Shown in pieces: positions 13,313 through 57,067 of a stretch of DNA of 64,000 nt. Numbering within the stretch: the first letter of the stretch is position 1; every line of letters begins with the position of its first letter. This DNA is from Thelephora terrestris. Taxonomy: Eukaryota; Basidiomycota; Agaricomycetes; Thelephorales; Thelephoraceae. The DNA is taken from contig WIUZ02000021.1 of assembly GCA_015956445.1 (NCBI GenBank), forward strand, positions 1-64,000, written 5' to 3'. Under the pieces are notes generated by a model. That model saw only the letters and a program-made list of their open reading frames with translations, searched no databases and was not told the DNA's origin. Position numbers and translations under genes: made by a program.

Positions 13313-13539
13313 TTAGGTCTTAGGCATTGTGCAGGAATTCGATCCATGTGAACGTTGAAACATTGAAATGTTATTGGGCAGTGAGTTTCCCACAGTTGCG
13401 ACCCGGTGTAAATTGAATCATTCCATTATTGGGTTTGGTAGATATCCCAGCTTTTTTGTTATATACAATGGAGCCCTCTCGGGCCGTGTGGTGCAAAGGG
13501 CCCGCTCTCGCGGGCCCGAGAGATAATAAACCTGTCCTA

Positions 13540-14072
13540 ACCCCTAACCTCCTAACCCCTAACCTCATAACCCTGACCTCCTAACCCCTAACTTCCTAAC
13601 CCTTAACTGTCCGAGGGGTTAGGTTACCTAACCTAACTGTCCGATGGGTTGGTTTACCTAACCTAACTGTCCGATGGGTTAGCTAACCTAACCTAACTGT
13701 CCGATGGGTTAGTTCACCTAACCTAACTGTCCGAGGTGTTAGCTAACCTAACCTAACCGTCCAATGGGTTAGTTCACCTAACCTAACTGTCCGAGGTGTT
13801 AGCTAACCTAACCTAACTGTCCGAAGTGTTAGCTAACCTAACCTAACTGTCCGAAGTGTTAGCTAACCTAACCTAACTGTCCGAAGTGTTAGCTAACCTA
13901 ACCTAACCTGTCCGATGGGTTAGCTAACCTAACCTAACTGTCCGAAGTGTTAGCTAACCTAACCTAACCTGTCCGATGGGTTAGCTAACCTAACCTAACT
14001 GTCCGAAGTGTTAGCTAACCTAACCTAACTGGCCGATGGGTTAGTTCACCCAACCTAACTGTCCGAGGTGCA
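13540..14072. repeat. 30-bp telomere-like satellite
   Basis: The array starts with degenerate CCTAACCCC repeats (13540-13610). It then settles into about 15 units of 30-31 bp made of CCTAACCTAACTGTCCGA plus GGGTTAGCTAA or a close variant. Each unit contains both strands' versions of the TTAGG-like word. It lies directly against the 3' end of the telomere-linked helicase gene, which fits a subtelomeric or former subtelomeric position. Short telomere-like words alone do not prove a chromosome end. Confidence 0.88.
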
Positions 14073-24074: not shown

Positions 24075-25890
24075 CGGTTATTACCCCACCTCAACCTTGA
24101 TTACTCAACTATCCACCCTTACCACTCCACTCCTACCACCCCTCACCTGCCACCTCGCCCTCACCTCCTCAAACTTCCTCACTTGCCCTTACCACCTCAC
24201 ATCTCCTACCTTGTGATTGCCCCTCCACCCCTGTTCACTCACACTACCTCCGCACGTCTACCACCTTACCCTCACTTGCTCAAACTTACCACTCTACACT
24301 TGCCACCCCACAATTAACACCACAAGTACTCTACCTCACACCTACGCCTTGAACTTACTACCTCACACTTACAACTTCACTGTTACTCCACTAACGCTCA
24401 CTACCCACATTCACCACCTTACCCCTTGCCACTTCTCGCTTACTAAGCTACACCTACCACCTACCCTCACTTCCTCACAATTACTCACTCACACTCACCT
24501 ACCCCCACCACAACCTCACTCCCCCATGCCTTTTTTTTTCTACGCAACCACCGTTTTTTCACACTTTACTCTTGTTTACACTTACACTCCTACCACACCT
24601 GCCATTGTACAAGCTACTGCCCATACCTGCTGGACACAACCTACCCCCTGCACCCTTTTAAGCATTTACACCCATTTTTTCAGTCTCACACACACGCTAC
24701 TGTGACTCTACACAGTCCACAACTTTACACTATCTGTTATTGCTGACCAGCTACCCTAAGCCAACTCCACACTCACTGTACAACCCACCTGCTCTACCCT
24801 CTACTCCATACCACTTGTCTTTCTCCAAACACCTTGCCCTTCTACACCTTCTCACAGCCATACCGGTCTCCTACAAACTCTACAGCACACTCCTCACCTG
24901 GCTTGTGTCAAGATGTCATGATATGATCAAAACTACCTCCCAAGCTTTGTAAGCTTTCTCCACACACACACACACACACACATGGCAGCACAACTCTACT
25001 CCAATTCCTGAACAACCTAACCTAACCTCCACAACACACACCTGCTTGTGCTTACACTTTCGCTCTTCTGTAGACCCCCACAACCTCCTTTGCACACCCC
25101 CTACCCACCTACACCACAACCACATTATTCCCCCTCACTTGACACTCAGCCTATCCATCCGCACTAGCCGCTCTTTAACCCACCGACCTAGACATCCACA
25201 TTGTTCTGCACAGCTCACACTACAACAACCCTCTCATGTCTACCATCTCACACTTGCTCACCCTTGACACCTACTTCCACTACCCTTACTACTCCACCCT
25301 TACTCACTCACACTTAACATCCAAATTCTACTACAACCCACTTACTCACTCACACGCCTCACACCAACCTAAACATTCACCCTTTACGGTTCACACTCGT
25401 CTACCCACACCTACTACTTAGCTTTAACCACTCACTCACGTCTATCGCTTTACACTTACTCACACTTCACTGGGTCCAGGGTAGAATAGGTTTTGGGGGA
25501 TTATTCTAAACAATATTCTGAATATAATTAAAATAGTAAATGTATTATTTTCAAAACAGATTCTGCCCACATTCAAGGAATATGCAAATGCAAATGAACT
25601 CTCAGCAGAGTTGGCTCTGGGCATCAGATTTGAATAAAATAATCCTAGGATATGGCTAGAATATGTTTAAAATAAGACATGTTTATTATTCTGATTATAT
25701 TCTGAATATTATTTAGAATAATCCCCAGAAACCTATTCTATCCTGGACCCAGTGCTTGCCACCTCAAAATCACTACCTTACACTTGCTCTCACTGCCTCA
25801 CACTCCCCACCTCACATCCACTACTTCCCTCTTACCAACCTACACTTACCCACCCATGCTTATTCACCAACACTTACTGTCTCATGTTTA
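24075..25890. repeat. G-poor low-complexity tract (imperfect CTCAC/CTACCACC)
   Basis: The + strand is made almost only of C, T and A, in imperfect words such as CTACCACC, CTCACAC and ACTTAC, with a (CA)n run at 24961-24981. Long open frames here are low-complexity artefacts. The tract is interrupted by the 287-bp MITE at 25468-25754 and resumes unchanged after it. Confidence 0.85.
25468..25754. mobile_element. 287-bp MITE with CACTGGGTCCAGG ends, 3-bp target duplication
   Basis: Terminal inverted repeats of about 60 bp (CACTGGGTCCAGG, then TAGAATAGGTTT, then GGGATTATTCTAAA) are flanked by CTT direct repeats at 25465-25467 and 25755-25757. The body is A/T-rich, in sharp contrast with the G-poor tract it sits in. 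The CACTG tip and 3-bp duplication point to the CACTA superfamily, with a tip different from the CACTGGGGGCA family elsewhere in the window. It has no coding capacity. Confidence 0.88.
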
Positions 25891-26624: not shown

Positions 26625-27357
26625 CTTAATGCAGATATGAGACTTTGATGTGCTCATACAATTTGCCTAGTTCACCCCAGTGAGCATGTGGAAATGTCCA
26701 AACAGGAGGGCCAGACCTTTGCCCAAAAATCCTGAATTCCTCCCCCCCATGCTTCTGAGCATCCACAAGGCATATGTGTCTACTTCTGTGATTTTTAGAG
26801 CATTGTGGAACCATTTGGGTCACCCCCTCCCAACACACAGGGGGGGTCCAATCATGCAGAACACCTGCAAAATTCTAGCTTTTGCCTGGAAGGTCCTCCT
26901 TGGTGCTAGGGGAATGCAGATATGGGACCTTGATGTGCTCATATATTTGCCCAGTCCACCCCAGTGAGCATGTGGAAATGTCCAAACAGGAGGTCCAGAC
27001 CTTTGCCTAAAAATCCTGAAACCCTCTCCCCCATCCTTATGAGCATCTACAAGGTGTATGTGTCCACTTCTGTGATTTTTAGAGCATTGTGGAACCATTT
27101 GAGTCACCCCCTCCCCAACACACAGGAGGCACAAAGTCAAATCATGCAGGACACCTCCAAAATTCTGTATTTCTCCTGGAGGGTCCTCCTTGGCCCTATA
27201 GTAGTCTAGGGAACCCTACTATGGGACTCTAATGCACTCAGACATTTGCCCAGAAGATACTTTTCCTCCTGGTAAAGATGTGGAAATATCTCAAAAACCG
27301 GTCCGCCAATTTCCTTCAGAGTGGGTGGGGATTGATCCCACAGATGTCCTCTGAAAA
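26625..27357. repeat. 290-bp repeat array A with terminal cap
   Basis: About two and a half units of about 290 bp carry the landmarks GGACCTTGATGTGCTCATA, GGAAATGTCCAAACAGGAGG, GTGATTTTTAGAGCATTGTG and GGAAGGTCCTCCTTGG. The array ends in a cap: ACCCTACTATGGGACTCTAA, then GGAAATATCTC, then GATTGATCCCACAGATGTCC. The identical cap closes array B at 33361. Open frames here run on the minus strand in both arrays by repeat identity, not as genes. Confidence 0.88.
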
Positions 27358-28589: not shown

Positions 28590-28985
28590 AAATTTTAAAA
28601 AAATATGGACATATAGAGAACGAGAAACGCAGTCGATCCCGCTAAACGCGCCCTCGAACGAACGAGAATTGAATGAGGAATGCCAGATTTTCGCCCTGGG
28701 TTTGAGTTGGCATTGCCAGCTCACCCGCGCGAATTGATGGGATTGATTGAACGTGCCTGCCTTTTTGGGAATACCTGGTGGGGAAGCCATGTCTTCCCAA
28801 AAGGGCAACCTCGATCAATCCCATCAATCCGCGCGGGTGAGCTGGCAATGCCAACTTAAACCAGGGCGAAAATAAGGCATTCCTCGTTCAATTCTCGTTC
28901 GTTCGAGGGCGCGTTTAGCGGGATCGACCGCGTTTGTTATTTCCCATGTCCTGGAATTTTTTCTAATTTTTTTAATTTTTTTTTC
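28590..28985. mobile_element. foldback/MITE-like inverted repeat of about 400 bp
   Basis: Arms of about 180 bp pair around a centre near 28785. The GC-rich inner arms contain CGATCCCGCTAAACGCGCC, CGAACGAACGAGAATTGA, GGCATTGCCAGCTCACCCG and GATTGATGGGATTGAT. The outer ends become A/T-rich and imperfect, so termini and target duplication cannot be set with confidence. It has no coding capacity. It may be a non-autonomous DNA transposon of a family other than the CACTG elements. Confidence 0.75.
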
Positions 28986-32393: not shown

Positions 32394-33361
32394 TCATTGC
32401 ACCCATCTTGGTGGTAAAGGTCTGGGCCCAAAAATCCTGAATCCCTCTCCCCCATGCTTATGAGCATCTAAGAGATATATGTGTTCACTTCTGTGATTTT
32501 TAGAGCATTGTGGAACCATTTGGGTCACCCCCTCCCAACACCCACAAGGGGGTCCAATCATGCAGGACACCTCCAAAATTCTTGATCTCTCCTGGAAGGT
32601 CCTCCTTGGTGCTATAGTAGCTTGGGGAATGCAGACATGGGACCTTGATGTGCTCATACATTTTCCCAGTTCCCCCTGGTGAGCATGTGGAAATGTCCAA
32701 ACAGGAGGGCCAGACCTTTGCCCAAAAATCTTTAATCCTTCTCTCCCATCCTCATGAGCATCTACAAGGTATATGTGTTCACTTCTGTGATTTTTAGAGC
32801 ATTGTGGAACCATTTGGGTCACCCCCTCCCAACACCCACAAGGGGATCCAATCATGCAGGACACCTCCAAAATTCTTGATCTCTCCTGGAAGGTCCTCCT
32901 TGGTGCTATAGTAGTCTGGGGAATGTGGATACTGGACCCTGATGTGCTCACACATTTGCCCAGTTCCCCCTGGTGAGCATATGGAAATGTCCAAACAGGA
33001 GGTCCAGACCTTTGCCTAAAAATCCTGAAACCCTCTCCCCCATCCTTATGAGCATCTACAAGGTGTATGTGTCCACTTCTGTGATTTTTAGAGCATTGTG
33101 GAACCATTTGGGTCACCCCCTCCCCAACACACAGGAGGCACAAAGTCAAATCATGCAGGACACCTCCAAAATTCTGGATTTCTCCTGGAAGGTCCTCCTT
33201 GGCCCTATAGTAGTCTAGGGAACCCTACTATGGGACTCTAATGCACTCATACATTTGCCCAGAGGACACTTTTCCTCCTGGTAAAGATGTGGAAATATCT
33301 CGAAAACCGGTCCGCCAATTTTCTTCAGAGTGGGTGGGGATTGATCCCACAGATGTCCTCT
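32394..33361. repeat. 290-bp repeat array B with the same terminal cap
   Basis: About three units of the family seen at 26625-27357, ending in the same cap, which finishes at GATGTCCTCT. Arrays A and B are about 95 percent identical over the last unit and cap, so one was copied from the other or both belong to a dispersed element with a fixed end. Confidence 0.88.
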
Positions 33362-33426
33362 ATGATATTCAAGTCTTCCTGGGGGAGATTAAATGTTGTT
33401 GTTCTAACTCACAGTCCTAAGTCACC

Positions 33427-33594
33427 CTTTAATAGCTCGTTGTGGATTCGCTAGGAATAGTACGCGCGTGTGTGTGTTTTGAATGATTGGTGTGAAGGAT
33501 AAGGAATGTGAAGCATTCAAAACATAAGAATTGGTAAGAAGAGTTCGAAGAAAGAGCGTGTTATAAAAAGTTTAAAAATACCATGTTCCTGACA
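33427..33594 (-). mobile_element. partial copy of the TGTCAGG element (5' end only, inverted)
   Basis: Read on the minus strand, this segment starts TGTCAGGAACATGG at 33594 and matches the first ~170 bp of the 3.3-kb elements at 37923 and 42658, including the ATAACACGCTCTTTCTTCGA stretch. The match stops near 33427. It lies directly against the 3' end of the PHD-like gene. It is an old fragment, with the rest of the element absent. Confidence 0.8.
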
Positions 33595-35834: not shown

Positions 35835-38800
35835 TTACGGGCGAAGGGTGGCAACGGATGTCCTGGCCAAGGCTCGAGCGGCTACGAGGAAGGGGAGGTT
35901 GGCTGGATCATACTTGAGTCGTTTCTTCCAGTCCCGGGTCCGGACAGGCCCTGCAGTAGAGGCCATCAGGGCAGCTTTCCTTTCCGTGTACCAGAATTCA
36001 TCCGTGGGGGACCAAGCACCGAGGTCAAGGCCTGAGGAATCCCAATTCGTACATCTTGGCCACCAGCTGAGATGGCCGTCTTGTCGAAAAGCTGTATCTC
36101 GTAAGTAAAATGTCTCTGCAGAATTAATATAAGGTGCCTTACAGGAGAGGGGACACGTAGAGACTCCAACGACAACATCCTCCTGAGTGTCGGTAAGGTC
36201 AGGGGTCCAGTAATGGACTCCGTTCACCACGGCTTCGGAACACGCCTCCAGGTGGAAGAGACGAGTGATGTCAGACTCTTGGGGTGAGGGGAGGACGTCC
36301 ATGGCGATCCTCCGTAGGACACCACCAGCAGACAGAGCTGCAGCGTAAGCGTGTGGGTAGGCTTGGAAGAACCTGAGAGCCTTGTTTTGATAATTGATGT
36401 AGTCTGCACGGTCGAGTTGTCTGTCGAAGTGAGGAACGGGGAAGCTATTGAGGTGGGGAACAAACGAGCCAGGTTCCAGCCTCTCAGGATTGAGGATCTT
36501 GAATGGCAACCCCTTCCTAACCAGGTTGGCCACCAAATTGTCAGGGTCGTGATCCCACCCTTCCCTGTCAATCTGAAGGATGGTGAGCGGGTCTTCAATG
36601 AAAAATTTCCAGTTAACGGGAGGATGCCGAGTGAGGGTGATAATATACCCCTGCAGAGTGGTTGCGGTGGAATGCCTGATCCAAATCCTTGGGCCCCGAA
36701 ACCTAGTTGAAAATCCAGGGTGGCTGGTATCCGGCGACAGATCGCAAATCTTGGGTGGCCAAACTCCTTGGAGGAAAGAATCGTGGAGTTGAATGTAGCT
36801 GGTTAAGGTTCTCCCTTTCAAGCCGAGCCTTTGGGGCCAATGTGCTTCCGTGGTAGGGACAACGTCCCCTGAGACTAGAAGCCCGTATCGTTTGTAGGCA
36901 AAATCTTCAACGGGTATCAGAGGTGGAGGTTTTGGTAGCGAGCTACCTGGAATAGGGATGTCGTCCATTTCAACGTCAGGATCTGTATGAGGCGGGTTAT
37001 CGACTATCCGGTCTTCAAGTTCGGCTAGGCGATGAAGAGCTGGCTCGTCCCCAATGCCATCATCAACATCTTTCACGCTGAGGGGGGATTGGCTGGGGGG
37101 AGGGGCTTCTGCCGATCTGTCCACGAATCCAGCCTGAGGTTGCTGGCATCCAGTGTTGGCATCCACTAGAAAATACTCCACGGGAGCTGGCTCCCCCCAA
37201 GCTTCTTCATCTGGGACGTCGTCACCGTCCTCATAATAGTCGCCATCCATTTCGTCATCTTCATATTCATAGTCATCGACATTGTCGCGTTCGAACCAGG
37301 AGTTTTCATCGGGGGAACCGCTGACCGGGGAAACTGCAGCCATTCTATCGACAACTTCAAGGCGAGGCGTTTGTTCCTCTTTGTGAACTGGAGGTTCCAC
37401 CCATCGAGCGGGTGCAGGCCCTCCCCATGACGGGTTGTTGCCTTCGCCATCTAACTCATAATCGTCTTCCTCATCGTCTTCCTCATAGTCGTCGTAGTAA
37501 TTGCTGACCGCATTCGAAGTGGCGTTGGCAAAGTTGAACTCCTCACAATGGTTCCACTCGTTGAGCTCACAGTCGAACCTAGTACCAAATGAGAGAGTGA
37601 AGGGAATGAAGAAGACTGCAGCTCACCAGAGATGACGACGCTCAAATATTTCCCATTGTTGCGTTACTTGCCCCCTAGTGATCTGCGACCTTCGCCAACC
37701 GAGGACGGTTTTGTTCGTGGTTTCATCCACCGTTTCTGTGCGTTCGAACTCGAAGACCAGAGCACCTTGACCTCCAGGCTGGCTGAAAGTCTGTGCTGCC
37801 TGCTGCCGACTTGACCAGCTCTGTGGTTTGTTCTTAAAGGAATCAATCCTTGCTTTCCTCATCCTAACATACTGGTGGGGATCCATGTTCTGACTCGGGG
37901 TGGCAGGTGGAGATGCGGGTGGTGTCAGGAACATGGTATTTTTAAACTTTTTATAACACGCTCTTTCTTCGAATTCTTCTTACCACTCCTTATGTTTTGA
38001 ATGCTTCACACTCCTTATCCTTCACACCAATCATTCAAAACACACACACACGCGTACTATTCCCAGCGAATCCACAACGAGCTATACAAGTGCTATCTAA
38101 GTCCATCAAAAGTCGACTCTATCTTCGGCAGGCCTCATGGTCATCACCCTTCCATCTCGGAAATCGTAGTGCTGGCCCCTCCTTGCTAGGACCTCCCCGA
38201 ACATAGCGTCACCATCTTCGGCACTCAGCTGAACGACTAGTTCAAGCCGATAGGAAGAGATGCCTTCGAGCGGACCGATCAGCCTCCCAGATGTCACCGA
38301 ACTGCGGAACACCTGGTCCCACATCTCCATCACCGGATGACTGCTCGACAGCGCTATCGACGTAGTCGGCAAGCGACCCTCCGTCTCCCTCGTCGGACCC
38401 CTGGGTGGGATCCTGTCTTGCGAGTCGTAGCTGGTGGCGAAGCTGGATCTCCGACTCGACCTGTCGGTAGGGACGGTTGACCCGATAGCGGAACTCTCGT
38501 CCTCCACCTCGACCAGACTGGTCACCATCCGACTCAACTGGTCGAGGATAGGGATTAGCCGATGGAGCCATGCGATGAGCAGGACGGCGTCGAGAGCGTT
38601 TGCAACGTTGCCCCTTAGTCACCGGACGTACCTCGGCGACCCTCGGAGCATCTTCGGCTCGATCAACCTCCATGACCTCATCCTCGATCTTCACCAACTG
38701 ATGGATTGGCTGCAAGGCGCAGCGCCCACAGTTCTCCTTGTCGGAAGCGGCCAAGGTGGAAGCCGGACCTGGTGTCGGAACGGGAACCGCGTTCTCGATC

Positions 38801-41800
38801 GGAGGCGTCGCATAAGACGACGGGTTAGGCGATGGCAGTACCACCTCGTCGGCGTACTCCAACTCGAACGGAACGTCGGCAGTCCCCTGACCAACTAATT
38901 TGGGACCCTCCTTGCAGTTGCAGGTTTTGTCCTGCAAGGACTCGACCTGCGCTGTCAACACAGCCACCACGTTCTCGAGTTCTTCGGTCTAGGAAATGTC
39001 AGCTTCCATCATTTTAAGCAATGATGAAAGCGGCATTACCTTTTCATCCCTCCTGGCCAACGCTCCCTTGATGTTGTTATCCCTGACCTTCAGACCGGCG
39101 ATCAATTCTTGATGGTTGGCGACCATTGCCTCCAACGCCTCGTTCGTCCCCTGCTGAAAGGCAGCCAAGGTCTCCTTCAATTGAAGACCCTCTGCTGACA
39201 GACGAAGGACGTCTGCCTTCGCCTCCTTCACCTCGCGCTCCAATCGTTCAACCTAGGCGGTTTGGTTAGTCGAGAGTCATACTCGAATATCCAAACGGAG
39301 GACCTACTTTACTCTCCCCTTCCCGAACGAGCGACCACAACAACGACGTGGCGACAGTGGCCTGGCGGACGGCCCGAGGAACGGTTGCTCCGTGCTCCAA
39401 TAGGTCCTGATCGTAGATTCCCCTTTGCAGGGTGTACCAGAGCTCCTTCTTGATCGGATGCTCCAGCTCCCCGAACCTACCCCTCATTCGGAAAGCCACC
39501 TTCTCGGCAATGATCGTACGGACCCAGAGCTCATCGTCCCAGGTCAACCCCATCAAATGAGGCATCGTCTCCCAGAGACGTTCGGCGTCCACTTCCGTGA
39601 CGACCTCCAAGATCTAGAAGCCGTTAGCTGGACATCAACGCCCAAAAGAACGTAACCTCTACCTAGAGGAAGGCGTTAGTGCTAGCACACAAAGCTCTAG
39701 GTCTCCCCCATACCTGGTCATCCGTGGCATAGGGAGTCCCAGCCGCACAGGCGTAGGTTTTGCGAGCAGCAGCACGGCGGTCGATGCGAGAGATGGTGGA
39801 GATGCCATTGGCAACTTTGTAGGTATGGTTGTTGGGGAAGGACATGTTTTGGTAAGATGATGGGGAAATTGCTGGTGTTGCTGATCAAGGATGGCTCCAA
39901 GAAGACGTCCTTCTTATAGCCTAGATCGGTGATCCTTCACGTGACCTACCTCGACGAACCTCATTGGTCCGGGTCACATCAACTTCCGCCCCTGTACCAT
40001 CATCGTCGGCTTACTACATCAAGCTGACACCTCGGCCCGCGGGACGGCCTTGGAAGAACTTCGTTCCGGAACGCCTAGAACGCGCGCGCACTAAAAATAG
40101 GTCTCAAGACCCTGATGACCCCTTTATGACATCATGAACCCCTTTTACGACCTCTCATGACTTTACGATTACGACCAACCCTGGACCCTGATCACACACG
40201 TGGACAGTCACATCACAGTCTCCTAACCGGAGGAAGGACTCGCCGTTATTCGGAAGCATCGCCCTAGGATTCTTCTGGTTAGCCCAGCGCATGTGGAGTA
40301 GCCGTTAGCGTGAAACGCCGGCGAATCTGTAATCCCTCATGTCCCATGAGTCTAGGCCCGACCTCCTCATGTTCGGACGTACGTTGAGGTTACCACTTGT
40401 CCGTGATGCTGTTACCGCCTACAGACAACAAGGGATGTTGAATGTTTCTACTCCCGAATCCAGCTGGCAGAGGCCATGTAAAGGGAGATTGACACCTGGC
40501 CCTTGGGTGAGATCCCCAGGTACGAACTTTTACGACCCCATGCTCCCATTCCTTTTGGACTAGTGTTATCTTTACCCCTATGTTTCATGCAGACATTTCT
40601 TATCTTTTATGCAATCCTTCACACGCTAGTAAGGCCCTTTGTCCTTTATCTTCCCACGCGTCATCTTTGCTCGCTTCCCTTACTTAGCGTTCACACACTC
40701 CTTATCTCCCTTTGTTCTGGCTTGATAAGGGTATATTAGGGTATTGACGTCATGGCCACTCCTTTAGTATAAGTAGCAACTGTGGCTGTATCGTAGTACC
40801 TTAGTTTTGTTACCTCAGGAAATCCTCTGCCCTTCTCAGCCCAGTTGCAGTTAAGGACAAGTCAGAGTTTCTTGTTTGATCCAAGACATCCCCCATCTGC
40901 TCTCCCTCCCGCTCTGCGCGTCAACTGCTCCTCGTAACTATAGACTCTCAGCAGTCATCTTAGAACACCTCGAGCGTCCAGTCGATCAACTGGTGGAGTC
41001 ATCAATCCTGCTGTAGGGATCAACCCTTGTTTGTTAAACTGAACGAAGTACAGTTTAGGTTGGGTTTCTCTTTAGGATTTCGACCTGACTTGTAGTGACC
41101 TCGGACAACCTACCGGAAGAATAGAGACGTGATCGTTCTCTCACAAGCTAGTTGGACTAGTGAGTACTCTGCGGAGTCGGCTCAGTGCACTGGTAGTTGT
41201 TGGGGTAGAGTGGCCCTGATAGGTGGAGGCTGGCGATCAGAGGATGTAGTGGGAGGGAGACTGGCTGGGCGTCGAGGGTGGACCAACCCTGACAAGGAAG
41301 GGGCTGGGGGGTGCCACTTGTTAAGAATCGTGAACATCGGAAACTTGGAATAGGTAGAGAGTCCCAAAGGTATGGACCAGCTGACGTAAACTGGGACTCC
41401 GTAGTCCTGCATCAGCTCAAGGACATCGTACCCGTAATCTTCCGTGTACCTGACAACCACACCAGTAAAGTTTCGACCCTGTTTGATTTCACCTAGCGTA
41501 GCCCAGAGTAGTTTTGTAAGGAAGGCGGGGGTGGAATCATCGGGATCTCGGCGGTTTATGAGTCGGTCAACATGTTGTGGATTTTTGAACAGATCTTCAT
41601 GCTCGGCGTTACCAAAGGGGATAGATTTGTGGGATGAGATGAGGTATGAACAGTAAGCCAGCATATGATGGAACGAAAGAACAGCCGCGACGGATGCGTC
41701 TTTGGCAGGTCTCCTCTTGTCGAAATTGTATTTGTATCGGTAGGAGGAGGGGTAAAAGGGTACCTGGTGCTTGCTGGGGTAACCGCCTGCCTTCAACCGG

Positions 41801-42243
41801 TTTATCAGAGTCAGGATGGCAGTTTCAATCTTCCACCAAAGCTCGCAGGCTTTTTGGTCAATGAAAAATTTGTGTAGTTCCCCTGACACTGTCGGTTTTG
41901 CTTCAAAGTTTCTGAAGATCGGATAATGCAACGAAGTCACAGCAGGGAGATAGGGCAACCAATACTTTTCCCGCTGAGAATAATGTATAGGGAAGCCACG
42001 TGGATTTCCTGCAGGGGTGCCAGGGATGGGATTGCGAGAGAGGGGAAGGGTGAGGTTGCGATCCCAGAGAACGTCATATCTGGGGTTAGATTGGGAAACA
42101 AGTCCCATGGTTTCGGGAGAAGGGTCATGGGCAGGATCCTGTTCGAGTGTCGAGACCAAGTCGTTGCCAAATTTAAAAATCTGGAGCTGATGCTGATTGT
42201 GAGTGACAAATGAAGGCTAACAGCGTAAACGACTTACCGCCAT
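35835..42243 (-). CDS. large Agaricomycete orphan protein (paralog 1), split by a 3.3-kb element
   Basis: Exons on the minus strand: 42243-42238 (ATGGCG only), 42180-37627 (containing the insertion at 37923-41221), 37578-36143 and 36097-35835. Without the element and one 5-bp duplication the exon is continuous and the model gives about 984 residues. Shared blocks with paralog 2 include WLPYLPAV, YCSYLI, YGVPVYVSW, FDCELNEW, an acidic linker, FIEDPLTILQI, PHAYAAALSAGGVLRRIAMD and the C-terminal SWWPR..SGLDLGAWSP. Intron positions are the same in both. There is no signal peptide, membrane segment or catalytic motif. I recall this C-terminal pattern from large families of uncharacterised mushroom proteins. 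As it stands the gene cannot give a full product; it carries one insertion in exon 2 and another in its promoter. Confidence 0.8.
37923..41221 (+). mobile_element. 3.3-kb TG..CA element, copy 1 (solo-LTR-like, carries a gene)
   Basis: Starts TGTCAGGAACATGG and ends GGCCCTGATA, flanked by 5-bp direct repeats GGTGG (37918-37922 and 41222-41226). Length is 3299 bp. The 7-base ends are inverted relative to each other (TGTCAGG/CCTGACA in copy 2). The right 620 bp resemble a fungal LTR: a TATA-like TATAAGTAG near 40770, a pyrimidine-rich leader and a GTTGGGGTAGAGTGG end. The left and middle parts carry a spliced minus-strand gene. No second long direct repeat, polymerase or integrase is present. 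The best reading is a solo LTR or LTR-related non-autonomous element with an unusual cargo gene; a short-TIR DNA element is the alternative. It looks whole and recent by comparison with copy 2. Confidence 0.8.
38106..39845 (-). CDS. cargo gene of element copy 1: coiled-coil protein with basic/Cys C-terminal region
   Basis: The first ATG at 39845 gives MSFPNNHTYKVANG. Exon blocks follow at about 39845-39719, 39615-39306, 39255-39040 and 38990 leftward, separated by short introns with GT..TAG ends. The second block is globular (WETMPHLMGLTWDDELW, MRGRFGELEHPI). The third is a clear heptad coiled coil (VERLEREVKEAKADVLRLSA). The last holds CNCKEGPK, ENCGRC, an acidic stretch, then KRSRRRPAHR. 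Overlapping frames at 38970-38106 leave the C-terminus undecided. The same gene recurs in copy 2. No homology to known transposases is apparent. Function unknown; DNA binding or packaging would be a guess. Confidence 0.6.
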
Positions 42244-42329
42244 CGTACACTACAAAAACAGTAAACAGTGTGTCCTGGAGGAGTAGAGAGCACAAGTCTT
42301 CCCTGGATCAGGTGATCGGAGCAGAGGGG

Positions 42330-42657
42330 AGAGCAAAAACTCAACCAAAGGGTCAACCCTGAGGTGAGGCAATGAGGAGGAAGATGGTGGTCGGGGAGCA
42401 AAAGATAACAGCGAAGTCAGCTTGCTATATAAAGGCTGGGCCATTCCCACGGGGAAGCCCTCACGTGGAGAGAAAAAGGATGATGGGTAGGGGAAAAGGT
42501 GATGGATCGGCAGATCCAGCCAGTGTTTGGTACGGGACGTTCCGTAGATCCCAGCAGGAATACTGGGTAAGGACCTGAAGGGATGGAAAATCAAGATTAG
42601 TTCATCGATCAAAGTGACAGGCGGATAAGTGAGCGACATACGATGGCTGTCAGGAAC
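42330..42657 (-). promoter_or_regulatory. core promoter and leader of orphan paralog 1
   Basis: Read on the minus strand, this segment is about 90 percent identical to 51358-51700, upstream of paralog 2. It contains a TATA box (TTTATATAGC, near 42431-42424) about 190 bp before the ATG at 42243. The similarity stops around 42330, before the coding region. The open frame starting MSLTYPPV at 42639 therefore probably reflects promoter/leader DNA rather than protein. Confidence 0.7.
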
Positions 42658-42833
42658 ATGGTATTTTTAAACTTTTTATAACACGCTCTTTCTTCGAACT
42701 CTTCTTACCAATTCTTATGTTTGAATGCTTCACATTCCTTATCCTTCACACCATTCATTCAAAACACACAAAACGCGCATACATTCACGGCAATACGAAA
42801 CAACCTGGCTATACAAATGCTTCTACAACGTCC

Positions 42834-45103
42834 TCAAAAGTCGACTCTATCTACGGCAGGCCTGAAGGTCACCAAACGTCCATCTCGGAGATCGTAGTGC
42901 TGGCCCCTCCTCGCTAGGACCTCCCCGAACATGGCGTCACCATCTTCGGCACTCAGCTGAACGACCAGTTCAAGCCGATAGGAAGAGATGCCTTCGAGCG
43001 GACCGATCAGCCTCCCAGATGTCACCGAACTGCGGAACACCTGGTCCCACATCTCCATCACCGGGTGACTGCTCGACAGCACTATCGACGTAGTCGGCAA
43101 GCGACCCTCCGTCTCCCTCGTCGGACCCCTGGGTGGGATCCTGTCTTGCGAGGCGAAGCTGGTGTCGGAGTTGGATCTCGGACTCGACCTGTCGGTAAGG
43201 ACAGTGGACCCGATATCGGAATCCTCGCTCCTCACCTCGACCAGAGAGGTCACCATCCGACTCAACTGGTCGAGGGTAAGGGTTAGCCGATGGAGCCATG
43301 CGATGAGCAGGACGGCGTCGAGAGCGCTTGCATCGTTGCCCCTTAGTCACCGGACGTACCTCGGCGACAGTCGGTGCATCTTCGGCTCGGTCAACCTCCA
43401 TGACCTCATTCTCGATCTTCACCAACTGACACTGGGGGCAAGGGCCCGAATACCCACCGGGCACATTGTGATTACATTGTGGTCACAGTCAAAAAGTGAC
43501 TCCAATGTGCCCAGTGGGTACATTGTGAACACATTTTGAATGTACTCCATCATGTGAATCAAATTTCGCCACCACCAAACATGTAGATCACATTCAAAAC
43601 TTGCCCTAAAAAGTTTTTCGAATGCGATCGACGATCACATTCACAATGTATTCAACATGTGGAGGAATTGGTAGGGTACATTGTGAACACATTTTGAATG
43701 TCGTTGATTTTACAATGTGAATCGAATGTATTCAAAATATGCCTAGGACATGCGTTTTGGTGCATTATGGTCACATGACTGGGTACATTGTAAATGTGAT
43801 CAGTATTTGCCCAGCGGTAATATTAAATTCACATTTTTGGGCACATTTTGAATGTACCTGATTTTTACCCACCGGGCACATTGGGATCACTTGTTGACTG
43901 TAACCACAATGTAATCACAATGTACCTGGTGGGTATTTGGGCCCTTGCCCCCAGTGTGATGGATCGGCTGCAAGACGCAGCGCCCACAGTTCTCCTTGTC
44001 GGAAGCGGCCAAGGTGGAAGCCGGACCCGGAGTCGGAACGGGAACCGCGTTCTCAATCGGAGGCGTCGCATAGGACGACGGGTTAGGCGATGGGAGTACC
44101 ACCTCGTCGGCGTACTCCAGCTCGAACGGAACATCGGCTGTCCCCTGACCAACCAATTTGGGACCCTCTTTACAGTTGCAGGTCTTGTCCTGCAAGGACT
44201 CGACCTGCGCTGTCAACACAGCCACCACGTTCTCGAGTTCTTCGGTCTAGGAAATGTCAGCTTTCATCATTTTAAGCAATGATGAAAGCGGCATTACCTT
44301 TTCATCCCTCCTGGCCAACGCCCCCTTAATGTTGTTATCCCTAACCTTCAACCCAGCGATCAACTCTTGATGGTTGGCAACCATTGCCTCCAACGCTTCG
44401 TTCGTTCCCTGCTGGAAGGCCGCCAGAGTCTCCTTCATCTGAAGACCTTCTGCCGACAGACAAAGGACGTCTGCCTTTGCCTCCTTCACCTCACGCTCCA
44501 AACGTTCAACCTAGGCAGTTTGATTAGTCGAGAGTCATACTCGAATATTCAAACGGAGAACCTACCTTACTCTCCCCCTCCCGAACGAGCGACCACAACA
44601 ACGAGGTGGCGGCGGTGGCATGACGGACGGCCTGAGGAACGGTTGCCCCGTGCTCCAACAGGTCCTGGTCGTAGATCCCCCTCTGAAGGGTGTACCAGAG
44701 CTCCTTCTTGATCGGATGCTCCAGCTCCCCGAACCTACCCCTCATCCAGAAGGCTACCTTCTCGGCGATTATGGTGCGGACCCAGAGCTCGTCATCCCAG
44801 GTTAACCCCATCAAATGAGGCATTGTCTCCCTGAGACGTTCGGCGTCCACTTCCGTGACGACCTCCAAGATCTAGAAGCCGTTAGCTGGACATCAACGCC
44901 CAAAAGAACGTAACCTCTACCTAGAGGAAGGCGTTAGTGCTAGCACACAAAGCTCTAGGTCTCCCCCATACCTGGTCATCCGTGGCATAGGGAGTCCCAG
45001 CCGCACAGGCGTAGGTTTTGCGAGCAGCAGCACGGCGGTCGATGCGAGAGATGGTGGAGATGCCATTGGCAACTTTGTAGGTATGGTTGTTGGGGAAGGA
45101 CAT
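42834..45103 (-). CDS. cargo gene of element copy 2 (paralog of 38106-39845)
   Basis: Same exon layout and nearly the same protein as in copy 1: MSFPNNHTYKVANG at 45103, the globular exon at about 44873-44564, the coiled-coil exon at about 44513-44298, and the CNCKEGPK exon from about 44248 leftward. A CACTA foldback (43430-43956) lies in the last exon. Amino-acid differences from copy 1 are few in the first three exons and more numerous in the Arg/Glu-rich part. Confidence 0.55.
43430..43956. mobile_element. CACTA-like foldback transposon, 527 bp, nested in element copy 2
   Basis: Tips are CACTGGGGGCAAGGGCCC and the inverse. TGA duplications lie at 43427-43429 and 43957-43959. Element copy 1 supplies the empty site: there ACCAACTGATGG is uninterrupted near 38700. 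The body consists of variants of CACATTGTGAT, CATTTTGAATGT and their inverses, in inverted-repeat arrangement with a looser centre. It is non-coding. It inserted after copies 1 and 2 separated. Confidence 0.93.
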
Positions 45104-46661
45104 GTTTTGGTAAGATGATGGGGAAATTGCTGGTGTTGCTGATCAAGGATGGCTCCAAGAAGACGTCCTTCTTATAGCCTAGATCGGTGATCCTTCAGGT
45201 GACCTACCTCGACGAACCTCATTGGTCCGGGTCACATCAACTTCCGCCCCTGTACCATCATCGTCGGCTTACTACATCAAGCTGACACCTCGGCCCGCGG
45301 GACGGCCTTGGAAGAACTTCGTTCCGGAACGCCTAGAACGCGCGCGCACTAAAAATAGGTCTCAAGACCCTGATGACCCCTTTATGACATCACGAACCCC
45401 TTTTACGACCCCTCATGACTTTACGATTACGATCAACCCTGGACCCTGATCACACACGTGGACAGTCACATCACAGTCTCCTAACCAGAGGAAGGACTCG
45501 CCGCTATTCGGAAGCATCGCCTTAGGATCCTTCTGGTTAGCTCAGCGCATGTGGAGTAGCCGTTAGCGTGAAACGCCGGCGAATCTGTAATCCCTCATGT
45601 CCCATGAGTCTAGGCCTGCGCTCCTCATGTTCGGACGCACGTTGAGGTTGCCACTAGTCTGTGATGCTGTTACCGCCTACAGACAACAAGGGATGCTGTA
45701 TGGTCTCTATCTTTGGCCTCTCCAAAGGAAGCATCCAAGAAGATTTTCACCTAGCCCTTGGGTGTGATCCCCAGGTACGAACTTTCATGACCCCATGCCC
45801 CTCTTTCTTTTGGACTAGTGTTATCTCTACCCCTATGTTTCATGCAGACATTCGTTATCTTTTATGCAATCCTTCACACGCTAGTAAGGCCCTTTGTCCT
45901 TTATCTTCCCACGCGTCATATTTGTTCGCTTCCCTTACTTAGCGTTCTCACACTCCTTATCTCCCTTTGTTCGGACTTGATAAGGGTATATTAGGGTATT
46001 GACGTCATGGCCACTCCTTTAGTATAAGTAGCAACTGTGGCTGTATCGTAGTACCTTAGTTTTGTTACCTCAGGAAATCCTCTGCCCTTCTCAGCCCAGT
46101 TGCAGTTAAGGCCAAGTCAGAGTTTCTTGTTTGATCCAAGACATCCCTCATCTGCTCTCCCTCCCGCTCTGCGCGTCAACTGCGCCTCGTAACTATAGAC
46201 TCCCAGCAGTCATATTAGAACACCTCGAGCGTCCAGTCGATCAACTGGTGGAGTCATCAATCCTGTTGTAGAGATAAACCCTTGCTTGTTAAACCGAACG
46301 AAGTACGGTTTAGGTTGGGTTTCTCTTTAGGATCTCGACCTGACTTGTAGTGACCTCGGACAACCTACCGGAAGAATAGAGACGTGATCGTTCTCTCACA
46401 AACTAGTCGGACTAGTGAGTACTCTGCGGAGTCGGCTCAGTGCACTGGTAGTTGTTGGGGTAGAGTGGCCCTGACAATGGCAAGACAGTTTCTCCACTGT
46501 GGAGACTCATGCCCACGATAGATCCCTCCTGAACGAGTAGGCGAGGTGGATGTGAGGCCCAAAGCGTCCAGTGTTGAGAAAGAAGGGACGGATCGAGGGA
46601 TCAAAAGCCAGGAGGTGCCGGAAGAAACGGTGTGGAAGGGAAAAGAGAGGGTGGCAGGTAG

Positions 46662-47614
46662 CACTGGGGGCAAGGGTCAAATACCTGGTGGGTACATGCT
46701 GAACACATTGTGATCACAGTCAACAAGCGATCACAATGTGCCCAGTGGGGGAAATTTAAATACATTCAAAATGTGCCCGGCCATGTGAGTCCAATGTGCC
46801 CAGTAGGCACATTTTGATTGTGATCACAATGTACCCATCAATGTGATCTCAATGTGCCCACTGGGGACATTTTGATTGCAATCACAATGTACACACCAAT
46901 GTGGACTCAATGTGCCTGCTCTGCACATTTTGATTGTGATCACAATGTTCCCATCATTGTGTTCTCAATGTACCCAGCTCATTACATAATAGTTTCTTTC
47001 ACAATGTTGTCCACAATGTGTCCAGCATGTGGCTGAGCCACTCATTCAGACTTCTTTCACAAAGTATCCAGTGATGTGTCTAGAATGTGTACAGTCATAC
47101 ACATAGTGATTTCTTTGAAAGTTCATGGTGAAATCAAACAATATTGAGATTGCATTGTGATTACTTCAAAAAGAACCCCCTGGGGACATTATGGACACAT
47201 CACTGGGTAATCTTTGAAAGAAGTCTGAATGAGTGGCTCAGCCACATGCTGGACACATTGTGGACAACATTGTGAAAGAAACTATTATGTAATGAGCTGG
47301 GTACATTGAGAACACAATGATGGGAACATTGTGATCACAATCAAAATGTGCAGAGCAGGCACATTGAGTCCACATTGGTGTGTACATTGTGATTGCAATC
47401 AAAATGTCCCCAGTGGGCACATTGAGATCACATTGATGGGTACATTGTGATCACAATCAAAATGTGCCTACTGGGCACATTGGACTCACATGGCCGGGCA
47501 CATTTTGAATGTATTTAAATTTCCCCCACTGGGGCACATTGTGATCGCTTGTTGACTGTGATCACAATGTGTTCAGCATGTACCCACCAGGTATTTGACC
47601 CCTTGCCCCCAGTG
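46662..47614. mobile_element. CACTA-like foldback transposon, 953 bp, in the paralog 1 promoter
   Basis: Tips are CACTGGGGGCAAGGGTCAAA and CCTTGCCCCCAGTG, with TAG duplications at 46659-46661 and 47615-47617. The uninterrupted site is seen in the opposite promoter near 48862-48870 (read in reverse). Arms of about 410 bp surround a loop near 47075-47200. The arms are so alike that the same 60-residue frame appears at 46854-47036 (+) and 47238-47420 (-). The interior repeats ATTGTGATCACAAT-like words throughout. It is non-coding and young. Confidence 0.93.
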
Positions 47615-51174: not shown

Positions 51175-51279
51175 ATTTGTAGTCTTTTTCCCTTATCCTT
51201 GTATTATTACTACTGCGAATAAGACCAATGTCTTGAATTACTTGTGCGATCTTGGCCACTATGTCACGCGTTCGTGACA

Positions 51280-51700
51280 TCACATCCACCTCGCCTACTT
51301 GTTCAGGAGGGATCTATCGTGGGCATGAGTCTCCACAGTGGAGAAACCGTCTTACCATCGTATGTCGCTCACTTATCCGCCTGTCACTTTGATCGATGAA
51401 CTAATCTCTCTTCTCTGTTCAAATCCAGTAGGTCAAGATCTCGATTTTCCACCCCTTCAGGTCCTTACCCAGTATTCCTGCTGGGATCTACAGAACGTCC
51501 CGTACTGAACACTGGCTGGATCTGCCGATCCATCACCTTTTCCCCTACCCATCATCTTTTTTCTCTCCACGTGAGAGGTTGCCTCCCCGTGGGAATGGCC
51601 CAGCCTTATATAGCAAGCTGATTTTGCTATCGTCTTTTGCTTCTTGACCACCATCTTCATCTTCATTGCCTCACCTCAGGGTTGACCCTTTGGTCGAGTT
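51280..51700 (+). promoter_or_regulatory. proximal promoter and leader of orphan paralog 2
   Basis: Near-identical to 42657-42330 plus 46540-46477 in reverse. TATA box CTTATATAGC at about 51604-51613, roughly 280 bp before the ATG at 51888. A 30-bp stretch near 51401-51435 is present here but absent from paralog 1. Similarity fades by 51700, well before the coding start. Confidence 0.7.
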
Positions 51701-51887
51701 CTTTCTCTCCTCTCTACTATATTCCACCTGCACCCTCTCCAAACTCCTCCAGGACGTTCGGACACAGTCAAGTTTGAACATACACTCTCAGGCTGAAGTG
51801 GTCACGACCTTCTGTAGGCTTGTGACTGGCCCCTTCCCACTTTCGATTTCTCCTTGTGACCCGTGGTCTTCCCTCTACTTTCATACC

Positions 51888-54562
51888 ATGCTGGTGAGTG
51901 CTTAGCTCTTCCCCTCTTTGCCCCAATCCTCACTGTGGGTCAGGGAGAAACGCTCCGGCTTCTCCGGCATCAGGGGAGTTTTCTTACCACGTTTGAAGAT
52001 CCCAAGCATGATCCCGAAACTATCAAGTCCGTCTGGAACAGTGATGACCAGGATGCCAACCTTTTCCCAGATCCACTTTCAGTTCCACTAAAACGCGACC
52101 CATTCCCTCATTATGGATCTATGAAGAACCCACACGGTTACCCCATTTGCTGGTCAGAGCCCAACTACGAATGGTACCCATACCTTCCTGCCGTCATCTC
52201 CTTCAAATACACCCTGTTCTTGGGCATGTCGACCAACCCCAACATCACGCACAATGGGTCAGGGTACAAACTGGATGATGAACAGATATCTCTGTGGGGG
52301 AATATCGAATACGTTTTATGCGCGGCCATCTCTGCAATCGGTGCTGGTCGTATCTGTCCCCTGGAACAGAGAGAACCCTTTCGCCCCTCGGAATATGGAT
52401 ACATGTTGACTCACAGCCAGTTGAAGTTTGCAAAGAAGTGCATGACGAAATCCCTCAACGCTTTCCAACGACTCCTCGGATACTGCTCCTACCTCATAGC
52501 CAGTCGTACTTACAAGAGTACTGAGACAAACCCGAACAACCCCGAGCCAAGTTTGGAGCAGTTGTTCTCTGTGGTCTATTCGAGACTCAATTCAACAGCT
52601 CGCAATTCGCATATCTTAGCAAAGCACCTTTTCAGGACACTTTCTGAGATACATGCAAGCCGAAACTTCGCAGGTATTGCCTTGCGGTGTACCGGACAGT
52701 ACGACTTCCCTGTGGTGAACGCGATGTACCGCTACGGAGTTCCTGTCTATGTGTCTTGGCCAAGTACCGGCAGAAACCCCTACCATTCATTGCACCAGGG
52801 CCACTACATCAAACGTTGGATTCCTTCCTCATTACCAGAGGCCCCAGAACAAACCCCCACACTTCCCACGTCGGTAACCACCCCTCCTCCCCTCGACCCA
52901 CCTCCCATCTATGGCACCCAACCTTTTGCCAAGAAGGTCCAGACCTACGACCATCCCATGGACTATGTCAACGAGCGGGTTAAGAAGATACCTATGGAGC
53001 TTGAAAACTCTCCCCACAAACAGGCCATGTTGGACCGTCTCCAATCGTCAAAGTCCTTTGCAAACCTTGGGAGTGCCAAATACTATAGGTTTGAAAGCAC
53101 TACCGTCCACGATGGTCAGAAGGAGCGTTGGTTTCGTGAACTGCTTACAAGGCATGATGCCCTGCGCGACCTGGAACTTACTGATAGCTGTCATCTGTGG
53201 TAAGAACTTTTGTTTCATTTCCACTTTCTTCTCACTGAAAAACCATGCAGGTTTGACTGCGTCCTCAACCAGTGGAACGCTTCAGAAGAATTCAATTTTG
53301 AACGGAACATGCACCTTAACCAAGAGCTCGCCAGCGACGAAATGGATGAGTTTGAATGGATAGAGGAAGATCCGATGGCTGTAGATATCCCTCTCCCAAC
53401 TTTCCAAGAGGGTTCTCTCCTGCATCAGCTTGAGACCTCTCAGTTCTCACTGGACACAGGCGTGGCAGAACTCTGGTTGGATAACCACATCTTTGCTTTG
53501 AAGAGCTGGGGGCTCCATCTGACCGGAGAAGAAGATCCCTCCTGCAACAAATTTTTTCCTAGAAGACTTGGCCTTTTCACAGAACGTCCTGACACGACTT
53601 TGCGAAGATTGTTCGATGGCGGGCTCAAAGGGCTCACTGCCGACTTCGATCTCCACCCGTCCCATCCTGGCAGAGACAGGCTCCCTCAGCAGCTGTCAGG
53701 GTCCGTCCTTCACATCCAGCCTGTTGGAAAGACATACTTGTTAACGGTCAGAGATAAAGACGCTTATCCCTGGAAGCTCTTGATCGAGGACCCCCTGGTC
53801 CTGCTCCAAATAGAAAGGGAACAGTGGCACCTCCAACCCAAAGGACTCGTTTCAAATCTCATCCAGAAAGGCCTCCGTTTCAAAATCCTCTACCCCTGCT
53901 ACCAGGAAGGAGCGACCTTCTATCGAAACCCGGGTCTTGTGACCCACCCAATGGGTAAAGCCCCGACTCACGCAGACTACCTGGCCTACTGTCTTGAGGT
54001 AGCCCACTTCTTTGAGCTCTACCCTCATACTCATGTGGCGGCGTTGTGTTCTGGTGGGATCCTTTGGAGGATTGCTGTCGACGTTCTTCCAATACCCGCA
54101 GAGTCCGACTTGGTCCACCCTTTCCATGAAGGAGCTTGTGAAACCCTCATAATCAATGGCCGACGATACTGGTCCCCCATTCTCTGTTTGGAGGACGAGG
54201 AGATGATTGTTGGGGTGTACAAATGGCCAGGCAAGTCCAGTTGAAACGTGACAGAGTGGTTTTACTCACGAGTTTTAGAGCACGAAAAGGATCGCCCTAA
54301 GCACAGCAGTTGGTGGCCGAAACCTGCTGCCTGGTCTACTTCCGGTCTTGAATTCTGTGCGTGGGCTCCGCTGGCAGAACATTGGTACCAGAAGAGGAAG
54401 AACGAGTTGAGGGAGGGGACAGGAAGAGCTATGCAGGGAAAAGATTGGAGGAGCGAGATCAAGTTTGAACGATCTCGGAGTCGCCCTTTCCATGAACTCG
54501 TCGTCAATTTCGCAAATGAATTTGTTCGGTCCCACAGGCTATCTCACACCCACTTACCATAA
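51888..54562 (+). CDS. large Agaricomycete orphan protein (paralog 2), apparently intact
   Basis: Exons 51888-51893 (ATGCTG), 51944-53199, 53251-54230 and 54279-54562 add to 841 residues with no internal stop. The six-base first exon is supported by the same structure in paralog 1. Intron 1 is GTGAGT..CAG, intron 2 GTAAGA..GCAG and intron 3 is a GC-AG intron (GCAAGT..TTTAG, 48 nt). Shared motifs: WYPYLPAV, YCSYLIA, YGVPVYVSW, FDCVLNQWN, LIEDPLVLLQIEREQW, PHTHVAALCSGGILWRIAVD, ILCLEDEEMIVGVYKW and SSWWPK..STSGLEFCAWAP. The N-terminal half is soluble-looking and the centre acidic. There is no signal peptide, membrane segment or enzyme motif. The promoter is disrupted at 48973 by the 2.3-kb element, leaving 608 bp upstream of the ATG. 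Function unknown. Confidence 0.85.
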
Positions 54563-55075: not shown

Positions 55076-56448
55076 CTGCGTTCCAGTACCACGATTTGTG
55101 ACTGGTTGCCTTTTGTCACTTGTACCCCCTTCGTTGATGATAACGATCCATACATAACCTCCGTCTCAAACACTTGTTGCCACCCGGAGGTGATCGCACA
55201 GTTGCTGGGGTCTCTGGCCTCTAACATGTGTAGCAGGTAGGAAGTGTTGCGCAATTTCAACTGAAGGATATCTTTTCTGCCCTTGTAGGCTTGTGGCCTG
55301 CCATAGAGTATACTGCAATAGTCTATCAGTGCGAGATGTGTGAACAAAACTCAATCTACTCACCGTCCGACTTGTGGATTTCCCCCTGGGAGTAGATGGA
55401 CTCTTCTTCATCTCCATCTGAGGGGTCCGTAACCTGGTCCATTGACTCTTCATCGGCTTCATCTGAGGGATCCGTGATCTCTTCCATGGACTCTTCGTCA
55501 TCTGCATCCCAGACGTCCACCTGGTCCATCCAATCTTCACCCCGTTCCTGAGGACTGTCAACCGAGTGACCTCCGGTCGGTTGGCTCAGCTCTACCCCTT
55601 CCATTGGGACCCCCTCTGTCAATACCTCCATCTTGAGCGGATGGTCCACAATGTCGACGGTTCCAGTGACCATATGGGATGGGAGTACCAACTCCTCCTC
55701 TTCTGGCATCGTAGATGGAACGTACTCAAGTTCATCAGCCCCTGGGCCATGTTCAAGGTCATCTATGGCCCTGAATAGTTCTTTGTTGAAGGACGGATTT
55801 GTTGGCCATGATCCAAACTCTAGGTCCGTCATCTCCTCTTCTTCCTTTTTCACCTTGACGCTGGAGGTATAGACGGCAGGTTCTTCGCCTGAAAGCTGCT
55901 CCTTTCTTGCTGAGCGACCCTCCTTGCGAGCGGCTGGCTCCTCCTTTCCTGTCGAGTCACCCTCCTTGTGAGAGGTTGGCTTTGAACCTCGTTCCTGAGC
56001 TTTGGACGAACGCGGCTTGGAAATGACTGCAGGGGGTAGAAGAGCCGACCTTACTGCAAAGGGTTGAGGAGTGACCCTTGCTCCAGCAGGTAGAGGAGCC
56101 AGCCTAGCAGGCTTTGGCCTCTTATGCTGTTTCTCCCAGGTAAAAGACTTGTAGACGGTGGCTGCATCCTCGGGGCTGAGAACGGGGTACGGGTGGACGA
56201 GGCTTCTCTTCAAGGGGGTCCTTCCAATTTCTTGGAAGAGGAATGAGTGGGCTTCTACATAGGAGTACCAGGCGTCGGACAATCCACATTTGGACTCCAG
56301 TCGGATCCCGGACAGGAGGTAGGCCCTTGCTGCACGCTGGGAGGATGTGGATGTGAGAGATTGGCCCGAACTCAATGTAAGCTCATGCTCCTCAAAGTCG
56401 TGGAAGAATAGCTGGGTAAAGCGGGGAAGCCGAGTCTGGAAGAGGCCT
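55076..56448 (-). CDS. unknown acidic/basic protein, cargo of the 54.6-57.1 kb unit
   Basis: The main exon is open from 56448 to about 55362 with no clear start: the frame runs right up to the junction with the LTR-like segment at 56449, so the N-terminus is missing or lies across it. It includes FFHDFEEHELTLSSGQS, GLSDAWYSYVEAHSFLFQE, a Lys/Pro-rich linker, KVKKEEEEMTDLEFG and an acidic tail with DPSDEADEESM repeats. A GTGAGT donor at about 55361 leads to short exons ending with VVLERR at 55076. No known domain. It is unrelated to the coiled-coil cargo gene. Confidence 0.5.
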
Positions 56449-57067
56449 ATCTTTTATGCAATCCTTCACACGCTAGTAAGGCCCTTTGTCCTTTATTCTC
56501 CCACGCGTCATATTTGTTTGCTTCCCTTACTTAGCGTTCCCACACTCCTTATCTCCCTTTGTTCGGACTTGATAAGGGTATATTAGGGTATTGACATCAT
56601 GGCCACTCCTTTAGCATAAGTAGCAACTGTGGCTGTATTGTAGTACCTTAGTTTTGTTACCTCAGGAAATCCTCTGCCCTTCTCAGCCCAGTTGCAGTTA
56701 AGGACAAGTCAGAGTTTCTTGTTTGATTCAAGACATCCCCATCTGCTCTCCCTCCCGCTCTGCGCCTCAACTGCGCCTCGTAACTATAGAACCCCAGCGT
56801 TCATATTAGAATACCTCGAGCGTCCAGTCGATCACCTGGTGGAGTCATCAATCCTGTTGTAGGGATAAACCCTTGCTTGTTAAACCCAACGAAGTATGGT
56901 TTAGGTTGGGTTTCCCTTTAGGATTTCGACCTGACTTGTAGTGACCTCAGACAACCTACCGGAAGAATAGAGACGTGATCGTTCTCTCACAAGCTAGTTG
57001 GACTAGTGAGTACTCTGCGGAGTCAGCTCAGTACACTGGTAGTTGTTGGGGTAGAGTGGCCCTGACA
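56449..57067 (+). repeat. third copy of the LTR-like 3' segment
   Basis: About 95 percent identical by eye to 40602-41221 and 45856-46476: TATCTTTTATGCAATCCTTC, TGATAAGGGTATATTAGGG, CATAAGTAGCAACTGTGG, CAGTTGCAGTTAAGGACAAG, GGTAGTTGTTGGGGTAGAG. The match starts abruptly at TATCTTTTATGC inside what is continuous element sequence in the other two copies. Confidence 0.9.

Follow-up and report, generated by a model that had tools for sequence, protein, structure and literature searches.

A 3.3-kb unit with long-terminal-repeat-like ends and an antisense, intron-bearing gene, inserted twice in a contig of Thelephora terrestris

The window analyzed here, a stretch of 64,000 nucleotides from the basidiomycete Thelephora terrestris (assembly GCA_015956445.1, contig WIUZ02000021.1, positions 1 to 64,000 of the forward strand), contains two copies of a 3.3-kb unit with ends of the TG...CA type. 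Each copy is flanked by its own perfect 5-bp target-site duplication and carries the same predicted four-exon gene on the minus strand, hereafter the cargo gene. The observation is real, the gene is under selection, and duplication does not explain the unit. The favored interpretation, held at a rough probability of 0.55, is that the unit is a 3.3-kb solo long terminal repeat (LTR) left by a retroelement whose integrase is of the retroviral type, and that its U3 region holds an antisense, intron-bearing accessory gene. The two insertions and the sites they occupy are as follows.

Copy 1 of the unit: 37923-41221, plus strand, 3299 bp, TGTCAGG...CCTGATA
Copy 1 target-site duplication GGTGG: left 37918-37922, right 41222-41226, perfect 5 bp
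Copy 2 of the unit: 42648-46476, plus strand, 3829 bp including a nested insert, TGTCAGG...CCTGACA
Copy 2 target-site duplication ATGGC: left 42643-42647, right 46477-46481, perfect 5 bp
Nested insert in copy 2: 43430-43956, a 527-bp CACTG...CAGTG foldback flanked by duplicated TGA, splitting exon 4 of the cargo gene
Resident gene, 5' part of the interrupted coding exon: 41227-42216, minus strand, the 3' part continuing below 37918
Paralogous promoter with the empty site for copy 2: 51251-51460, minus strand

The two copies are independent insertions. Because each has a duplication of its own, they are not an LTR pair, and the arrangement of copies 1 and 2 as the two LTRs of one element was ruled out. 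Copy 1 sits within a coding exon of the resident minus-strand gene; with the unit removed, the reading frame flanked by the duplication is restored, and the joined flanks form a single frame of 429 amino acids (aa), all of which aligns with the initial part of a paralogue at 51860-53203 (131/438 identical, E 1e-47). For copy 2, an empty site is present upstream of the gene at 51 kb, where both flanks occur free of the unit with a single ATGGT. The preliminary description of this DNA had proposed a 3.3-kb unit with perfect GGTGG and ATGGC duplications, and had named syntenic copies lacking duplications, or 5-bp repeats arising by chance, as observations that would speak against it. The empty site and the interrupted exon agree with that proposal, no such syntenic copies appear in the window, and two random 5-mers from the window match with a probability of 0.0011 (200,000 draws).

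Copy 2 is longer because of the nested insert, whose terminal parts are inverted repeats and which we take to be a CACTA-like miniature inverted-repeat transposable element (MITE). Without this insert and one TGA, copy 2 measures 3299 bp, the same length as copy 1. Aligned with MAFFT, the copies agree at 93.5% of the aligned bases, with 215 mismatches and 10 gap columns in 3304. A second CACTG-ended foldback element of the family of the nested insert lies at 46662-47614, with arms at 46662-47088 and 47614-47186 that are 98% identical; it interrupts a 430-bp repeat that also occurs at 48973-48544. As a separate observation on the insertion sites, the resident gene (35835-42216, minus strand) and the gene at 51860-54559 (plus strand) are paralogues with a protein identity of about 30-39%, and neither has a Pfam match at cut-off. 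Their upstream DNA is 90.7% identical over 279 bases (42323-42597 vs 51715-51438), so that the promoter is far better kept than the coding part.

The cargo gene of copy 1 is predicted to comprise 465 codons in four exons, separated by introns of 100, 55, and 51 bases that all run GT...AG. Its parts, and those of its counterpart in copy 2, are located as follows.

Cargo gene of copy 1, exon 1: 39714-39845, minus strand, 44 aa, ATG at 39845
Cargo gene of copy 1, exon 2: 39308-39613, minus strand
Cargo gene of copy 1, exon 3 (coiled-coil): 39040-39252, minus strand
Cargo gene of copy 1, exon 4 with the stop codon: 38242-38988, minus strand
Cargo gene of copy 2: 42970-45103, minus strand, exons 45103-44972, 44871-44566, and 44510-44298, with exon 4 split into 44246-43957 and 43429-42970

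The splice junctions of copy 2 fall at the same places as those of copy 1; in its exon 4, the frame running into the nested insert reaches a stop. A piecewise count, which omits ten columns beside the nested insert, gives 73 synonymous changes among 92 coding differences, and the full alignment gives 74 of 93, against 27.9 ± 4.4 expected (500 simulations, maximum 40). Synonymous and nonsynonymous change, a comparison suggested in the preliminary description, points to purifying selection, with a dN of 0.018 and a dS of 0.265 (NG86) or 0.233 (YN00). A control frame of 170 codons that overlaps exon 4 and is open in both copies shows a dN of 0.080 and a dS of 0.058, and was rejected as a true gene since its dN exceeds its dS. 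The synonymous bias, unlike the behavior of the control frame, indicates that selection acted on the cargo gene in the lineages behind both copies. Judged by this conservation, the cargo gene is real and its predicted protein is held nearly unchanged by purifying selection, which upholds the earlier proposal of one four-exon minus-strand gene common to both copies.

Divergence between the copies is patchy. The block at 39575-40134, covering the start of exon 2, intron 1, exon 1, and the upstream region, differs at 1 of 560 positions, while divergence is 9-10% in exons 2 and 3 and reaches at least 30% in two short stretches. The longest identical run reaches 365 bases, and shuffles attain at most 187 (n=5000). 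This run, together with the patchy divergence, requires either an exchange between lineages, by recombination or conversion, or a very strong constraint on the block in question.

The predicted protein shows a 3.5-residue hydrophobic (heptad-half) period of the coiled-coil type across residues 146-262, which none of 2000 shuffles matched in strength, in line with the coiled-coil product first suggested. Exon 4 encodes a basic patch that resembles a nuclear signal and could act as one. The Pfam scan covered exons 2-4; exons 2 and 4 gave no match at E 0.1, and the sole match of exon 3, to SlyX, was sub-threshold (E 0.021). Searches for relatives of exon 2 yielded none in PDB, and none was confirmed among 169 pattern stretches in GTDB contigs and 7 in IMG/VR, an absence that says little because these collections are poor in fungi. 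The AlphaFold model of exon 2, built on a two-sequence input, was poor (mean pLDDT 53.3).

The ends of the unit bear on its mode of movement. The left end reads TGTCAGG in copies 1 and 2 and in a fourth left end elsewhere in the window; the right end reads CCTGACA in copy 2 and in a third right end, so that the TGTCAGG/CCTGACA ends first described hold for copy 2 and for all left ends, whereas copy 1 closes with CCTGATA. The right end common to the family members spans about 620 bp. The two additional family members are listed below.

Third right end: 56448-57067, plus strand, about 620 bp, CCTGACA, divergence of 4-5.5% from copies 1 and 2, no corresponding left part
Fourth left end: 33424-33594, minus strand, about 170 bp, TGTCAGG, no corresponding right part

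The third right end differs from copy 1 at 34/620 positions and from copy 2 at 26/620, compared with 20/621 between copies 1 and 2. It begins abruptly at 56448. An open frame of 365 aa on the minus strand (55356-56453) ends at this border. The right flank of the third right end, GTCTG, recurs 10 bases to the left of the same border, and GTCTG followed by a TGTCA start, as a left end for this member would require, occurs nowhere in the window. The fourth left end breaks off abruptly at a position equal to about 38095 of copy 1. Profile searches detected no further strong left, right, or middle family matches in the window, the weak ones having E 0.055 or worse. Within copy 1 there is no terminal direct repeat (longest match 13 bp), and its first 200 and last 624 bases have no inverted 9-mer in common, the inverted similarity being limited to 7 bp. 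The motif CACACTCCTTAT is directly repeated in both end regions, and ATCCTTCACAC is likewise common to them.

Promoter-like sites are found both in front of the cargo gene and in the right end.

TATAAG upstream of the cargo gene: 39913-39918 (copy 2: 45171-45176), minus strand, 73 bp upstream of the ATG in both copies
TATAAG in the right end: 40768-40773 (copy 2: 46023), plus strand, pointing out of the unit
TGACGTCA upstream of the right-end TATAAG: 40745 (copy 2: 46000), plus strand

An outward-pointing promoter-like site is what an LTR needs. The right end of about 620 bp with a TATA-like box, as described at the outset, is borne out in its length, and in its box for copies 1 and 2; the third right end has CATAAG in that place. 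The outward TATAAG is weak evidence, since this motif recurs in the window (7 on the plus strand and 5 on the minus strand) and no unusually long run is invariant; the longest, 64 bases in three ends, was matched by 1540 of 5000 shuffles, and a constraint peak on the right-end promoter was dropped as a candidate. No long plus-strand frame lies downstream of the site in any of the three right ends.

Taken together, TG...CA ends, 5-bp duplications, the absence of longer terminal repeats, and the outward site make a single LTR the most economical interpretation. Duplications of 5 bp combined with TG...CA ends are typical of a retroviral-type integrase; GGTGG and ATGGC lie within the 4-6 bp looked for in an LTR of the Ty3/gypsy or Ty1/copia type and are backed by the interrupted exon and the empty site. 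The lack of long inverted or direct terminal repeats fits a single LTR and not a transposon with long terminal inverted repeats. Under this interpretation, a full-length element (LTR-gag-pol-LTR) would reside elsewhere in the genome, and its sense genomic RNA would start from the outward right-end promoter. Introns on the antisense strand would not be spliced from the sense genomic RNA and could thus survive the RNA stage and persist through reverse transcription, the same logic on which antisense-intron reporter genes rest. Integration would yield the 5-bp duplication, and recombination between LTRs would leave a solo LTR in which the gene remains complete and keeps its own promoter. The protein, with its helical N-terminal part, coiled coil, and basic patch, may regulate the element from the nucleus or serve it as an accessory factor, and template switching or gene conversion among lineages may account for the patchwise divergence of the copies. 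We infer the full-length element, the RNA intermediate, and the regulation of the element by the protein. A more tentative proposal is that the LTR is a complete gene locus under long-term purifying selection, with solo LTRs remaining promoter-equipped genes and thereby spreading a gene family.

Several observations weigh against a solo LTR. A direct-repeat LTR partner, a primer-binding site, a polypurine tract, gag, and pol were all not found in the window, and Pfam domains of gag, reverse transcriptase, and integrase were absent from 30 translated stretches (29 distinct), which represent part of its frames. Both copies of the unit are single, and the two extra family ends (56448-57067 and 33424-33594) are not paired with each other. 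The abrupt borders at about 38095 and 40598 (copy 1 coordinates) could also mean that a shorter unit received its gene-bearing middle by insertion or by internal exchange. The third right end carries TGACATCA along with CATAAG, so that TATAAG with TGACGTCA occurs in two of three right ends. The 170-codon overlapping frame stays open in both copies without explanation.

The giant LTR with an antisense gene and the gene-carrying element moved in trans, which had been put forward initially, both fit these data, and a third possibility is a DNA transposon with a transposase of unknown type. The DNA transposon would have 7-bp inverted ends and generate 5-bp duplications, and its minus-strand gene would encode either the transposon's own transposase, as yet undescribed, or a factor that transposition requires. 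Such a role would directly account for the purifying selection seen on the sole gene of the unit; moreover, the TGTCAGG/CCTGACA ends are inverted, the CACACTCCTTAT direct repeats in both end regions are possible binding sites, and each copy in the window is single. However, exons 2-4 have no Pfam match at cut-off, transposases included, and the inverted similarity ends after 7 bp, with no inverted 9-mer in common. The outward promoter-like site in two right ends would have no obvious role, and the 5-bp size with TG...CA ends is, as noted, typical of a different enzyme, which leaves the DNA transposon unlikely.

Movement in trans by retroelement machinery is also improbable, the unit then being a large, non-autonomous, non-LTR derivative in which a normal host or element gene was captured as cargo between cis-acting ends of 170 bp (left) and 620 bp (right). 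The end regions do occur apart from the gene at 56448-57067 and 33424-33594, and they have CACACTCCTTAT and ATCCTTCACAC in common, so the gene-bearing middle could be a later addition; yet no left end is joined straight to a right end in the window, and selection across diverged copies argues for long service of the gene and not for a recent capture. The repeat-rich window, with its many duplicated blocks, would allow for an ordinary host gene that was segmentally duplicated or misassembled, but this reading is contradicted by the differing flanks, the two different perfect 5-bp duplications, the empty site, and the restored frame, and is scarcely credible. Should no full-length LTR element exist, the solo-LTR interpretation would give way to what is possibly a new kind of element: a unit that has retroviral-type ends, carries a gene, and depends entirely on movement in trans, or one whose transposase is of an unknown type.

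Antisense accessory genes of LTR retrotransposons have already been published, and the cargo gene is therefore less unusual than first proposed; what differs here is its location inside the TG...CA, LTR-like unit. In plants, Retand, Grande, and RIRE2 carry the antisense aORF-3R between pol and the 3' LTR, with its own promoter, conserved in most copies, and with putative nuclear or DNA-binding products, some of the SMC type (PMC11963269, PMC7264820). They resemble the present case in that an LTR element bears an antisense gene in its 3' portion, at times with a coiled-coil-type (SMC) product, but the cargo gene lies inside the TG...CA unit and not between pol and the 3' LTR. Their TRP28 domain (PF04195) is not matched by cargo exons 2-4 at E 0.1. 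Boty (BcGypsy1) of Botrytis cinerea is a Ty3/gypsy element with an additional antisense gene, brtn (PMC8365987, PMC7264820), which differs in lying between pol and the 3' LTR (PMC7264820); the cargo gene is likened to brtn by description alone. HBZ of HTLV-1 is an antisense, spliced, LTR-promoted gene for a coiled-coil (bZIP) nuclear regulator (PMC10186651). For the products of Grande, Retand, and brtn, a nuclear or accessory role has been proposed; for HBZ, it has been shown. The cargo gene shares with HBZ the antisense orientation, predicted splicing, a putative promoter in the LTR, and a coiled coil, and no sequence relation between the proteins is claimed. The HBZ coding region lies outside the LTR, unlike the cargo gene. 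The superantigen gene of MMTV, a mouse virus, encodes a protein within a long LTR in sense orientation, and here too no relation is claimed. Large retrotransposon derivatives (LARDs) consist of two LTRs of several kb and a non-coding middle. As non-autonomous retrotransposon-like units, they are reported also in Laccaria bicolor (PMC3411680), and they differ from the present single unit with a selected gene. At the level of titles and beginnings of abstracts, with subscription journals sparsely covered, no description of a fungal LTR with a spliced gene within it was found.

The surrounding window has a G+C content of 50%, is dense in repeats with many duplicated blocks, and gave no tRNA or Rfam matches across its 64 kb. 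Modelled introns span 51-100 bases. The frame at 60963-62036 encodes inosine monophosphate dehydrogenase, with PDB chain 4af0 as its top match, presumably a protein of the basidiomycete Cryptococcus neoformans. This match, an OrsD/C2H2 frame, and the intron sizes are in keeping with a fungal and probably basidiomycete genome. At 13535-14070 and 14586-19808, a telomere-like CCTAACCCC array adjoins a 30-bp satellite next to DEAD, Helicase_C, and OrsD/C2H2 frames, an arrangement that we regard as reminiscent of telomere-linked helicase genes. Large palindromes occur at 8956-10301 (1.35 kb, 97.7%), 25468-25754, and 28625-28935. A direct repeat pair, 26628-27352 and 32628-33361 (91.4%, 5.3 kb apart), holds 294-bp tandem units, with a 215-bp satellite between its members.

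Each insertion copies the genes placed within an LTR, and these persist in solo LTRs after the element itself is gone. If the favored interpretation is true, a retroelement could in this way keep its regulator expressed from what remains of it, or supply the host with copies of the gene. The antisense orientation offers a simple reason for the persistence of introns through an RNA stage. The gene is short, intact in copy 1, equipped with a predicted promoter, and clearly marked by selection, which makes the role of antisense accessory genes of LTR elements testable in a fungus.

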